Source of the DNA: a virus
Length of the DNA: 33,903 nucleotides
Direction: 5' to 3' (one strand)
Virus record (IMG/VR): IMGVR_UViG_3300021185_000291
Coordinates: 1-33,903 of that record
Shown: positions 3,123 to 7,187 of the stretch, in pieces
Layout of the letters: each line of letters starts with the position of its first letter
Numbering within the stretch: position 1 is the first letter of the stretch
Notes under the pieces: model-generated
Told to the model about the DNA's origin: nothing
What the model saw: the letters and a program-made list of their open reading frames with translations, nothing else
Databases searched by the model: none
Program-made: the position numbers and the translations under genes

Positions 3123-3458
3123 TTGTCTCTAAAATTATCGAATCTAGCCAGAGTAATGGAAGAGTTTCGAAAATTTGATAGCGAGATGCAATCGCAAACA
3201 ATACTTGCTTTTATAATCGTTGCTAACAAACGTAGTCAGAACTCAACTGTTTCAATAGGAGAAGTAGGTGCCTTACTAGGTATCACCTCAGCATCTGCAA
3301 GCAGAAACATAGCAGCCTTGACTGCCTTTTCCAGGCATCGGAGAAAAGGGCATGACCTTATCACCACCTATGAGAACCCTGAGTTTCGGGTAGAAAAATT
3401 CATAGAGTTAACTGAGAAGGGTAAGGCTTTAGTAACTAGGTTAGAGGATATCATATGA
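3123..3458 (+). CDS. Winged helix-turn-helix regulator (MarR-like)
   Basis: A 111-residue DNA-binding protein. The recognition region SIGEVGALLGITSASASRNI (about residues 41-60) is a good helix-turn-helix, and ELTEKGKAL near the end resembles the wing-plus-helix close of MarR-type proteins. The start is TTG 3123, 9 bases after AGAGGAG (3107-3113); ATG 3156 is an alternative that would remove 11 residues. Its stop overlaps the integrase start (ATGA), so the two are coupled. By position it is a candidate regulator of lysogeny or of integrase direction, perhaps acting at the TACAC-NN-GTGTA palindromes; that link is inference. Confidence 0.7.
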   Translation: MSLKLSNLARVMEEFRKFDSEMQSQTILAFIIVANKRSQNSTVSIGEVGALLGITSASASRNIAALTAFSRHRRKGHDLITTYENPEFRVEKFIELTEKGKALVTRLEDII

Positions 3459-4438
3459 GTATCACACCAAGGGGTAACGGCTTTCAAGTTTATGTAGCTG
3501 TTAACGGTAGTAAGTTTCGCCGTACTGTATCCACTCGCGGCGAAGCTACATCACTGGAGCAATCAGCAAGGCAGGCCTTAATGTTAGGCAAGCCTGTCCC
3601 AAGCGAAGGCATTACTGTCTCTCACACTTGGGGTCTGAAGGAAGCTGCAGACAAATGTTATAAGATGAATTGGGTAGGTACTAAGTCAGAGTCCAAGCTC
3701 ATCTTAGTAATGAACGAGGTAGTCAAGTGGTTCGGTAAGGATAGAAGTATATCCGACATAACAACTGAGCTAGTTGATGAGTTCATTATGGAACAGAAGA
3801 CAAAGCGCAGGGCTAACGCGACTATCAATAGAAAGCTTGCCTGTCTTTCTAAGATACTACGCTTCTCAAAAGAGAGAGGTAAACTACCAAACGGTATGCC
3901 CACCCTGTCACGCCAGAAGGAAGGCATGAATAGGATACGCTTTCTTTCAACGCAAGAAGAACAGCAGTGCTTAGACACATTAGAAAGCTGGGGCTTCACA
4001 GAACTTTATGATGCTTTCGTTGTATCAATAGACGTAGGCATGAGAGCAGGTGAGATGGCTAAGCTAGATGCAAAGTGTATTGACAAACATGGCGTGTACC
4101 TGGTGGACAGGAAGAATGGTATGCATGGGCTAGTGCCTCTCACTACTCGCGCACGTCAATCCCTTGAACGTAGGGTTGCAGTGGCTGGCGGTGGCAAACT
4201 CTTTGGTACTTTCCCACGCTCAAAGTGGCATCGGGTTATTAACCATCTAGAACTAGAAGATGTTGTCTGGCATACCCTAAGACATACTACTTGCAGTCGC
4301 CTTGTGCAGCGTGGTATGCCCCTTGTGCATGTCAAAGAATGGATGGGTCACAAGGCTATCCAGACTACAATGAGATACGCACACCTCGCCCCAAAAAATC
4401 TAGAGGTTGGTGTATCTTTACTAGAGCAGGTAGATTAA
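3455..4438 (+). CDS. int: Tyrosine site-specific integrase
   Basis: Recombines phage and host attachment sites. The 327 residues carry the full catalytic set: Arg197 in GMRAGEM, His273 and Arg276 in HTLRHT, His299 in MGHK and the nucleophile Tyr308 in TMRYAHL. The N-terminal third contains a core-binding SAM-like helical domain, preceded by an arm-binding-type segment. ATG 3455 overlaps the stop of the winged-helix gene. The attP region follows directly (tRNA-Leu fragment at 4560), the usual arrangement for tRNA-targeting integrases. It shows the phage is temperate or recently was; integrases of this kind occur in some marine T7-like phages. Confidence 0.95.
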   Translation: MSITPRGNGFQVYVAVNGSKFRRTVSTRGEATSLEQSARQALMLGKPVPSEGITVSHTWGLKEAADKCYKMNWVGTKSESKLILVMNEVVKWFGKDRSISDITTELVDEFIMEQKTKRRANATINRKLACLSKILRFSKERGKLPNGMPTLSRQKEGMNRIRFLSTQEEQQCLDTLESWGFTELYDAFVVSIDVGMRAGEMAKLDAKCIDKHGVYLVDRKNGMHGLVPLTTRARQSLERRVAVAGGGKLFGTFPRSKWHRVINHLELEDVVWHTLRHTTCSRLVQRGMPLVHVKEWMGHKAIQTTMRYAHLAPKNLEVGVSLLEQVD

Positions 4439-4457
4439 TTATACCTGTTTAAACTTT

Positions 4458-4486
4458 GTGTCCTTAGCAGTGTCCTAAGTGGCGTA
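4458..4486 (+). repeat. Tandem GTGTCCT sites left of attP
   Basis: Two copies in tandem: GTGTCCTTAG (4458-4467) and GTGTCCTAAG (4470-4479). The second belongs to the 17-base repeat GTGTCCTAAGTGGCGTA (4470-4486), which recurs exactly at 4730-4746, on the other side of the tRNA fragment. The placement on both sides of the attachment core fits arm-type integrase or excisionase sites. Confidence 0.55.
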
Positions 4487-4559
4487 AATAGAGAGAGATA
4501 AATAGAATAGAAAATATATAGGATTTAATTTCCTTAGCTTTTTCAGATACTTATACGAT

Positions 4560-4600
4560 GGGGGCATGGTGAAATTGGTATACACAACAGACTTAAAATC
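4560..4600 (+). other. attP: attP core: 5' half of tRNA-Leu(UAA)
   Basis: From 4560 the sequence reads as the first half of a bacterial tRNA-Leu: a seven-base acceptor strand GGGGGCA, TG, D-arm GTGAAATTGGTATACAC, then ACAGA and the anticodon loop CTTAAAA (anticodon TAA). After TC at 4599-4600 it departs: the stem partner of ACAGA would be TCTGT but the phage has TCCCT, and no variable or T arm follows. So this is not a functional tRNA but a region of identity with the host gene. Crossover near the anticodon loop would join the phage 5' half to the host 3' half and keep the tRNA intact. The exact edges need the host sequence. Confidence 0.8.
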
Positions 4601-4685
4601 CCTGCCTCCCTTTCTCCACTTCTGTAAATACTACATAAACATATAGCCACCAACGGCTGTAACCCCCAAGGGTAGACATTATATA

Positions 4686-4714
4686 TTGTTACACGAGTGT
4701 AACGGACTTACTAT
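4686..4714 (+). promoter_or_regulatory. Promoter-like sequence overlapping a palindrome (RNA polymerase gene)
   Basis: TTGTTA (4686-4691), 17 bases, TACTAT (4709-4714): four of six matches in each box with ideal spacing. The perfect inverted repeat GTTACAC-GA-GTGTAAC (4688-4703) covers the -35 box and spacer, where a bound repressor would block polymerase. It contains the TACACGAGTGTA element seen elsewhere. It stands 42 bases upstream of the first RNA polymerase gene, so it could be the lysis-lysogeny switch. Confidence 0.45.
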
Positions 4715-4715
4715 A

Positions 4716-4746
4716 TAGGACACAATCTGGTGTCCTAAGTGGCGTA
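4716..4746 (+). repeat. Inverted and direct GTGTCCT sites right of attP
   Basis: TAGGACAC (4716-4723), six bases, GTGTCCTA (4730-4737) form a perfect inverted repeat. The right arm is the start of the 17-base direct repeat GTGTCCTAAGTGGCGTA (4730-4746), identical to 4470-4486. Together with the left pair this gives four GTGTCCT half-sites flanking the tRNA fragment. The last repeat merges with the ribosome site of the polymerase gene (AGGAG, 4746-4750). Confidence 0.55.
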
Positions 4747-4755
4747 GGAGATAAC

Positions 4756-5526
4756 ATGCCGACATTAGAAGAGCAGTTAGAACTAGAAGAGCAGATGCTT
4801 AGTGATGGTGTCAGTCGATACCAAAGCAACACAAACAAACTAATAGAGAAGGGTATCGAATCTAATACACAGCATGGCCGGGCTATGATTGCTGCCATCG
4901 TCAATGCTGTAGCTGATGGGGTATCTGATATTCAAAGAGACGTTACAAGTAATCGGGATATTACTAGAAAAAATTTACAGGGAATGGATGCCCACCAAGT
5001 TGCATACCTATCCCTTATCACAGTAGTCGATGAAGTATCCAAGAGGTTTACCTTAATGAAGGTAGCCAAGAGCCTTGGGTCTAACATCGAACTACAGAAG
5101 AGGCTTAGCCTTTGGGTTGAGGCTGAGGGTAAGTCAGCAATCAACGTAATCAAGAAGGCCAACGAGAAATCTAGCAAGCTACATAAGAGACAAGGCCTAG
5201 TCCATAAGATGAACAAGGATGGTTACAACCATACTGAATGGACTAACGAAGAACGTATCCATGTAGGTATGAGGTTGGTAGATAAGATTATTATAAAGAC
5301 AGGGTTGGTCAGGCTAACCAAGTCAGTGAAGAAGAATAAAACTATTACCTATCTGGAAGCTACCCCCGAAACTCTGGCTTGGGTTCAGAAGTTTAACACA
5401 CATCAAGAAGTTATGAAGCCACGTTATGCTCCATCACTCATACCCCCTAGAGATTGGGACGATGTAATTGGTGGGGGATACCACAGTCAAGTCATCAATC
5501 AACTACCAATCGTGAGGGTACACTGA
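4756..5526 (+). CDS. T7-like RNA polymerase, N-terminal-domain subunit (split gene, part 1)
   Basis: A 256-residue protein matching the N-terminal domain of single-subunit phage RNA polymerases, the part that in T7 contacts and opens the promoter. It includes the helical MDAHQVAYLSLITVVDE segment and ends PPRDWDDVIGGGYHSQ then PIVRVH, which aligns with T7 PPKPWTGITGGGYW through LVRTH, about residue 300 of 883. There the frame stops (TGA 5524-5526) and the rest of the polymerase is encoded by the next gene in the -1 frame. Start ATG 4756 follows AGGAG (4746-4750). Both halves together (about 809 residues) approach a whole enzyme, so the likely product is a two-chain polymerase; a frameshift joining them is an alternative. 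Confidence 0.85.
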   Translation: MPTLEEQLELEEQMLSDGVSRYQSNTNKLIEKGIESNTQHGRAMIAAIVNAVADGVSDIQRDVTSNRDITRKNLQGMDAHQVAYLSLITVVDEVSKRFTLMKVAKSLGSNIELQKRLSLWVEAEGKSAINVIKKANEKSSKLHKRQGLVHKMNKDGYNHTEWTNEERIHVGMRLVDKIIIKTGLVRLTKSVKKNKTITYLEATPETLAWVQKFNTHQEVMKPRYAPSLIPPRDWDDVIGGGYHSQVINQLPIVRVH

Positions 5527-7187
5527 TGAAGAAAAAATCTAGAGAGTATCTTGATAGGCTACGCCAGCAAGACATGAGTGTGGAGTATCGCTGCATCAAT
5601 GGACTCCAGCGCACCCCTTGGTCAATCAATAAGCCTGTGCTTGAGGTAATGAGAACAGCATGGGACAGCGGTGAAGAGTGGGCTGGCCTCCCTCCTCGTG
5701 AAGACTTACCCTTACCTGTGTACCCATTCGATAAAGACCCGCAGGAAATGAGCGAGGCAGAGAAGTTACTGTTCAGAGATTGGTCGAGCAAACGCAACCG
5801 TGTGTACCAAGCGAATGGTAAGTCAATGTCACGGCGTATCCAGGTGGAGCGTACACTACAGCTTGCCAACCACTACGCCAAGTACGATGAGTTTTACTTT
5901 GTGTGGCAACTGGACTTCCGTTCACGCAAGTATCCTGTCGAGTCCTTCATGTCACCGCAGGTTGCCGATTGGGGTAAGGCTCTTATTGGATTTACATACG
6001 GCTTCCCTATCAACGATGCAGGAGATGCTGATTGGCTCGCCATTCACGGTGCTAACCTGTTCGGTAATGACAAGGTATCCTTTGCTGAGCGTATCCAGTG
6101 GGCATGGGATAGCGAGGATGACATAGTAAAGGTAGCTGAGAACCCACTTGATTACATGTGGTGGACGCAGGCCGACAAGCCTTGGCAGTTCCTTGGCTGG
6201 TGTATGGAATGGTACGGCCTACTACGACAGGGCTGGGGATACTACACCCACCTACCCTGCGCTGCTGATGGTAGCTGTAATGGACTACAGCATCTAAGTG
6301 CAATCCTGCTTGATGAGCAGGGTGGTAGGGCTACTAACTTAATACCATCAGATGCACCGTCAGATATATACACTGATGTAGCAATTAGGGCTGAGACTTT
6401 AGTAAAGCAAGATGCCCAAGATGGTAATGAGATGGCTAAGAAATGCTTAGAGTTTGGCATCACTCGCAGTCTAACCAAGAGGCCTGTGATGATTACTCCT
6501 TACAGTGGCACACAACACGCTTGCCGTGAGTACATCCAAGACGCTATCGCTGATAGGATTGAGAAGAAGGGAGACAGTAACCCCTTTGGTGATGACTACT
6601 TTGAAGCCTCGCTCTACCTCAGCCGACATATTTGGCAGGGTATTAACGAGACTATCTCATCAGCCCGGCAGGTAATGGACTACGTTAAGACCATCGGCTC
6701 ACACTACGCTGATGCTAACAAACATATGGAATGGATAACGCCTACTAATTTTCTAGTTGTCCAGCCCTACCTCAATACTAAGAAGCGGAGGATAGAAACA
6801 CACATTGATGGTAGTATTGTACGACTAAGCTATCAACAAGAACTAGAAGATGTGAACAGGTCACGCATAACTTCTGGTAGCTCCCCTAACTTTATCCATT
6901 CACTGGATGCAGCAGCCCTGACTGAGACAGTGGTGCGTTGTATGGATGGGGGGATGACTGACTTTGCTATGGTTCACGACAGCTATGGTACACATAGCCC
7001 TAACATGCCAGTGCTTAGTCAGGTTTTAAGAGAAGCCTTTGTTGAAATGTATCAGGAGAATGATGTATTACAACAGCTTCGTGACCATGCTTGTTACACT
7101 ATAGGAGATAATACACTACCCCAACCACCAACAAAAGGTGGCCTAGATTTGAGCAAGATACTGGAATCACAGTACTTCTTTGCTTGA
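5526..7187 (+). CDS. T7-like RNA polymerase, catalytic subunit (split gene, part 2)
   Basis: A 553-residue polymerase body starting MKKKSREYLDRL at ATG 5526, which overlaps the stop of part 1 (TGATG) and has its own ribosome site GAGGG (5514-5518) 7 bases upstream. Catalytic motifs are complete: DFRSR (Asp130, Arg134; T7 D421/R425), motif A ADGSCNG with Asp248 (T7 D537), motif B Arg314, Lys318, Tyr326 (T7 R627, K631, Y639) and motif C HDS with Asp485 (T7 D812). It ends QYFFA, like the conserved FAFA foot of T7. Spacing of motifs agrees with T7, so nothing essential is missing from the catalytic part. The frame is open back to 5454, which means a -1 frameshift could also fuse the halves. Confidence 0.93.
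   Translation: MKKKSREYLDRLRQQDMSVEYRCINGLQRTPWSINKPVLEVMRTAWDSGEEWAGLPPREDLPLPVYPFDKDPQEMSEAEKLLFRDWSSKRNRVYQANGKSMSRRIQVERTLQLANHYAKYDEFYFVWQLDFRSRKYPVESFMSPQVADWGKALIGFTYGFPINDAGDADWLAIHGANLFGNDKVSFAERIQWAWDSEDDIVKVAENPLDYMWWTQADKPWQFLGWCMEWYGLLRQGWGYYTHLPCAADGSCNGLQHLSAILLDEQGGRATNLIPSDAPSDIYTDVAIRAETLVKQDAQDGNEMAKKCLEFGITRSLTKRPVMITPYSGTQHACREYIQDAIADRIEKKGDSNPFGDDYFEASLYLSRHIWQGINETISSARQVMDYVKTIGSHYADANKHMEWITPTNFLVVQPYLNTKKRRIETHIDGSIVRLSYQQELEDVNRSRITSGSSPNFIHSLDAAALTETVVRCMDGGMTDFAMVHDSYGTHSPNMPVLSQVLREAFVEMYQENDVLQQLRDHACYTIGDNTLPQPPTKGGLDLSKILESQYFFA

Follow-up and report, generated by a model that had tools for sequence, protein, structure and literature searches.

The canonical tRNA attachment site of a phage holds the 3' part of the tRNA gene. 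The T7-like cyanophages P-SSP7 and S-TIP37 carry the first half of tRNA-Leu, and integration into tRNA-Leu has been shown (PMC8776855); tRNA fragments of this kind had earlier been used for host prediction (PMC3861242), and the general idea of a 5'-half attP that rebuilds the host tRNA is already published. In tRNA replacement by T7-like Fonsiphage/pelagiphages (PMC6811365) and in actinophage tRNA-dependent lysogeny (PMC10865867), a complete cognate tRNA is combined with a short core. In the T7-like Pseudomonas phage LUZ100, a complete tRNA-Leu(UAA) stands next to the integrase gene and a short core behind it; its authors read the complete tRNA as a leftover of imprecise excision (PMC10134795).

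Here we report the analysis of a half tRNA-Leu(UAA) in a linear IMG/VR viral record of 33.9 kb (the whole stretch of DNA analysed, hereafter the window). We consider it likely that this element serves a marine T7-like phage as attP for integration into a host tRNA-Leu(UAA) gene, with a rebuilding design that was reached secondarily. As in P-SSP7 and S-TIP37 (PMC8776855), a regulator gene, an integrase gene, a leader, the first half of tRNA-Leu and an RNA polymerase gene follow each other, and the predicted crossover lies toward the anticodon loop, but the window integrase is only distantly related to theirs and falls in a separate clade, and the terminator-like hairpin seen behind the half tRNA in seven of eight cyanophages read was not found in the window. 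The replacement systems (PMC6811365, PMC10865867) share the complete cognate tRNA and short core with relatives L002-L005 and L034 of the window; unlike them, the window has no complete tRNA and no short isolated core, and the host gene would be restored through the 41-nt identity region. LUZ100 (PMC10134795) resembles the window in its T7-like regulator-integrase-RNA polymerase module with tRNA-Leu(UAA) sequence next to the integrase gene, complete in LUZ100 and only a half in the window. Two observations are new here, an isolated member of the rebuilding type, with a foreign-looking leader, inside a clade of the replacement type, and a complete-looking T7-like prophage that shows the replacement type in place.

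Anatomy of the half tRNA and its host match

The features of the locus, all on the plus strand, are as follows.

3123-3458, +, small transcriptional regulator gene (phrog_9665; PHROGs 8e-23)
3455-4438, +, tyrosine integrase gene (PF00589, E 1.5e-17; alignment with 16 relatives)
4456-4486, +, candidate P-arm integrase sites, TTGTGTCCT at 4456-4464 and GTGTCCTAAGTGGCGTA at 4470-4486 (repeats)
4492-4559, +, AT-rich leader, candidate promoter region for the rebuilt tRNA (absent in relatives; composition)
4560-4600, +, probable attP identity region, 5' half of tRNA-Leu(UAA) (sequence; 40/41 to host tRNAs; ARAGORN hybrid)
4560-4566, +, acceptor strand GGGGGCA (sequence)
after 4566 and before 4587, +, D-arm, GTG...CAC (sequence)
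4587-4591, +, 5' strand of the anticodon stem, ACAGA (sequence)
4592-4598, +, anticodon loop CTTAAAA, with anticodon TAA at 4594-4596 (sequence)
4599-4600, +, T-C, the first two bases of the 3' stem strand (sequence)
4590-4600, +, minimal core GACTTAAAATC in the anticodon loop, likely crossover region (second lone copy in relatives)
4601-4755, +, P' side of attP, flank common to relatives (alignment, repeats, pattern)
4689-4702, +, palindrome TTACACGAGTGTAA (pattern search)
4717-4725 and 4730-4746, +, P' arm repeats AGGACACAA and GTGTCCTAAGTGGCGTA (repeat search)
4756-5526, +, N-terminal part of a T7-like RNA polymerase in its own ORF (PF14700, 1e-12; split conserved in the clade)
5526-7187, +, catalytic part of the T7-like RNA polymerase (PF00940, 2e-108)

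The tyrosine integrase gene thus lies upstream of a T7-like RNA polymerase gene (PF00589, PF00940/PF14700), and the order between them is arm repeats, leader, 5' half, core and arm repeats. The half tRNA starts 121 nt after the integrase stop codon, and its 41 nt compare with the about 39-44 nt of tRNA-Leu first half found downstream of the integrase gene in the described type. The candidate P-arm motifs recur on the other side of the core, and in relatives the two sides carry matching changes of the motif (for example, to GTGGCGTA in L034). The integrase-polymerase gap holds either tRNA-Leu sequence or an anticodon-loop core in nearly all integrase relatives. The regulator gene stands where integrase-positive T7-like phages have a MarR-type regulator (gene order in P-SSP7, HTVC200P, CRP-403 and LUZ100).

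Several further observations concern the surrounding genes. The palindrome TTACACGAGTGTAA is also found at 343-356 and 1362-1375, with nine matches in the window (up to two mismatches) against 2.2 expected and similar motifs in relatives, and is a candidate operator of the regulator encoded at 3123-3458. A C-5 cytosine methylase gene (459-1427) adjoins a phosphoadenosine phosphosulfate reductase-like gene (1427-2188; phrog_424). The RNA polymerase is split into two ORFs, nearly always in different frames, across the integrase clade of the window (the window, L002-L005, L007-L009, L011-L013, L015, L016, L018, L021, L023, L034, L037, L038 and L042), and is a single ORF in L049-L065, LUZ100, HTVC200P, P-SSP7 and the G787 prophage described below; a split RNA polymerase has been reported in another pelagiphage group (PMC6811365).

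The identity to tRNA is lost from 4601, where CCTG stands in place of TGT and phage sequence runs on; since the tRNA of matching hosts continues TGTCGG, it ends exactly at 4600. Blastn aligns 42 bases with a host tRNA-Leu(UAA) locus at 97.6% identity (E 3e-14), so the tRNA likeness, as judged by alignment, is beyond chance. The window carries the 5' part only, not the 3' part of a canonical attP. The segment TGCCTCC (4604-4610 region) can pair with the acceptor strand GGGGGCA and was considered as a designed 3' end; it is not conserved in relatives, and its pairing is therefore treated as chance. ARAGORN called no complete tRNA in the window, and a search of the window against Rfam gave nothing above threshold. 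The contig is probably incomplete, since the record is linear and the right-end ORFs checked included no terminase; a complete tRNA-Leu(UAA) may lie in the missing part, and relatives keep theirs next to the integrase gene.

The preliminary description had taken the 41 bases for the 5' half of tRNA-Leu(UAA), diverging inside the 3' anticodon stem, and for part of an attP with its crossover near the anticodon loop. Direct reading bears out the former, and the latter agrees with the integrase-proximal attP position of the half, with the 11-bp core GACTTAAAATC common to relatives and with the crossover point in a related prophage. Its implication that the design is unusual among T7-like phages does not hold, as T7-like cyanophages with the first half of tRNA-Leu were already known.

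An exact host copy of the 41-mer, for which the same description proposed a search, was absent from 84,980 bacterial genomes; the best host match, at 40/41 (A instead of T at 4581), was found with one mismatch allowed in 11 of 136 genomes of one order. When three mismatches were allowed in a class sample, one of 385 genomes matched, at 40/41, and up to two mismatches gave matches in 11 of the 61 genomes of its family. The bacteria with the best tRNA match to the window are not cyanobacteria. Joining the 5' half of the window to the 3' half of a matching host gave a sequence that ARAGORN calls tRNA-Leu(taa), as foreseen in the proposal that the tRNA is rebuilt from phage 5' and host 3' sequence, whereas the reciprocal junction (host 5' half and phage) was not called a tRNA. 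No integrase relatives were found in the 61 genomes of the best-matching family, and no lysogen of the window phage in the genomes searched.

On the preferred reading, the integrase would cross over in the anticodon loop, within the core at 4590-4600. At the integrase-side junction, the phage 5' half and the host 3' half would form a complete tRNA gene, whose upstream sequence would be phage DNA, the leader at 4492-4559. The other junction would leave the host promoter and the host 5' half as a fragment reading toward the phage RNA polymerase gene.

Relatives with a complete tRNA and an integrated example

Among the integrase relatives, the nearest (78-89% identity) without exception combine a complete tRNA-Leu(UAA) with a separate short core. 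Wherever the downstream region was read in relatives at 47-89% identity, a complete tRNA-Leu(UAA) with encoded CCA lies directly behind the integrase gene, followed in most of them, after 0-23 nt, by a lone anticodon-loop core copy of 7-14 bp and then the RNA polymerase gene; in L015, L017 and L049-L052, the nearest repeat, at a distance of 72-102 nt, is only a possible core. L002-L005 and others hold the 11-bp core GACTTAAAATC itself a second time, on its own. A different layout, with the complete tRNA-Leu(UAA) on the other strand just upstream of the integrase gene and an isolated core downstream of that gene, is seen in the pelagiphages HTVC200P and HTVC119P, the Mediterranean fosmid phage S28-C10 and LUZ100. 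A full-type order of integrase, tRNA-Leu(UAA) and core also occurs in L030 (Rhodobiaceae MAG MED766, PAHC01000007.1), in a contig that is binned to a bacterial genome but is phage-sized, and possibly a binned phage rather than a prophage.

Alignment shows that the 5' half of the window runs into the flank that follows the isolated core in L002. Compared with L034, the replaced block starts where the tRNA gene starts and ends at GACTTAAAATC, and the 5' half differs in tRNA allele from the copies of the relatives. The complete phage tRNA of the same isotype that marks replacement is present in the relatives and in the G787 prophage, and ARAGORN finds none in the incomplete contig of the window; in place of a short core with no rebuilding at either junction, the window has a 41-nt region that rebuilds the tRNA in silico.

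A 5' half without a complete tRNA nearby (the half type) is found in the cyanophages P-SSP7, P-SSP3, S-TIP37, S-CBP1, S-CBP2, S-SRP01, S-TIP28 and SS120-1 and in the contigs L062, L063, L065 and L066. The feature of the window is therefore of a known kind. In a scan with a 24-mer from the D-arm and anticodon region, at least 120 stretches were obtained, and all 80 that were read hold complete tRNAs, so half copies of this tRNA sequence are rare.

A phylum-wide search with the LUZ100 integrase led to G787, a 4.8-Mb genome from the same phylum as the genome of L030. It contains a complete-looking T7-like prophage at about C7:120,000-162,670 (L101-L104), with genes for RNA polymerase, primase-helicase, DNA polymerase, portal, capsid, tail and integrase. 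At the left junction (attL), the host leader and the 5' half of tRNA-Leu(UAG) end in CTGGATTTAGGTT, where phage sequence begins; at the right junction (attR), phage sequence is followed by the same 13 bp and the host 3' half. The core thus lies in the anticodon loop, and the host flanks joined in silico give an intact tRNA-Leu(UAG). Neither junction holds a complete tRNA, and the prophage carries its own tRNA-Leu(UAG); in G787, the 5'-half pattern had no matches other than the broken host gene and the gene of the phage. This prophage has the replacement design.

Leader, integrase tree and origin of the half tRNA

The leader at 4492-4559 is absent in relatives and occupies the place of their tRNA gene. 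The GC content of 4486-4559 (0.23) is among the lowest 0.015% of the 74-nt windows of the contig. No clear match to the sigma-70 consensus was found in the window leader, and P-SSP7 and P-SSP3 have a perfect TATAAT in theirs. Among the half types, which represent three lineages rather than twelve independent observations, so that both comparisons are only suggestive, the distance from the integrase stop to the tRNA start is 82-121 nt (12 half types), against 29-69 nt in the 31 full types with the tRNA behind the integrase gene, and a perfect TATAAT occurs in 6/12 leaders, with a mean of 0.6 and a maximum of 4/12 in shuffles. From the geometry of the proposed junctions, we infer that the rebuilt tRNA would be transcribed from phage DNA, with the leader as candidate promoter. 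A terminator-like hairpin stands directly behind the core, before the RNA polymerase gene, in 7/8 cyanophages, LUZ100, L063 and the G787 prophage, and was found neither in the window nor in its close relatives; such a hairpin would, once the phage has integrated, protect its RNA polymerase gene from transcription started at the host tRNA promoter.

In the integrase tree (50 rows, root not inferred), starred sets of 6, 8 and 22 rows contain the window and no other half-type row, and the remaining half types form two separate clades. The half and full labels require five changes on the tree, against about 13.6 with shuffled labels. Given the nested position of the window in full-type sets, a switch to the half type on its branch is the simplest reading of these sequences. 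A cited paper on tRNA replacement likewise describes close relatives, some of which rebuild the tRNA while others carry one with them.

The likely attP reading draws on the anatomy, the comparison with relatives, the place in the tree, the foldable hybrid and the related prophage in which the host tRNA is split; the integration of the window phage, its exact host and the promoter activity of the leader are inferred. Against this reading count the searches that gave no exact 41-mer and no lysogen, the leader with no clear promoter match, the incomplete contig, and a junction found in no second contig, which would also fit an aberrant particle or a misassembly. The lineage would have come to rebuilding secondarily, its closest relatives being predicted to replace, with a complete phage tRNA-Leu(UAA), a short core and the host tRNA left broken.

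Aberrant excision, which we hold possible but less probable, would mean that the sequence arose by a recent accident and need not be an attP design that is maintained: a replacement-type relative would have taken the host leader and 5' half from its left junction in place of its own tRNA gene. The replaced block, spanning the start of the tRNA gene of L034 to exactly the core, would fit such an event, as would the foreign composition of the leader, the different tRNA allele and the junction itself, since no second viral contig with the exact 5'-half/phage junction was found, nor any viral contig with the exact leader sequence, in scans that may omit the window's own record and near copies. The window leader, however, bears no resemblance to the leaders of the 11 candidate host loci examined. 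The product of such an excision would still function as a rebuilding attP, so this alternative concerns origin more than function.

An assembly chimera of a host tRNA-Leu upstream region and a phage is improbable: the feature comes from a single metagenomic contig and is unique in its clade, but it sits between phage-specific arm repeats, no long sequence is shared at the junctions that could have caused a misjoin, and the same design is real in cyanophages (PMC8776855). Slightly less probable still is a relic tRNA fragment without a role in integration, which would accord with the lack of an observed integration event for the window phage but not with a position at the core of nearly all relatives, between arm repeats, and an end at the anticodon loop as in known attP sites.

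Two ways of integrating into tRNA-Leu

Rebuilding the tRNA and carrying a spare are two ways to avoid killing the host by breaking tRNA-Leu, and within a single integrase clade of T7-like phages the two appear to be interchangeable. The rebuilding state is accompanied by extra leader DNA, which fits a phage that supplies the promoter too. As a tentative scenario, the switch may have taken one step, in which a replacing phage took up the promoter and 5' half of the host tRNA gene at its own left junction, gave up its spare tRNA gene and became a rebuilder; if true, an essential tRNA of the host would then be controlled from the phage. That the host tRNA is split in a complete-looking T7-like prophage speaks for a function of such phage tRNA genes and against their being leftovers of excision. 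It is predicted that T7 phages of the LUZ100-like and pelagiphage-like kinds need the spare tRNA for lysogeny, and that half-type phages need the leader.
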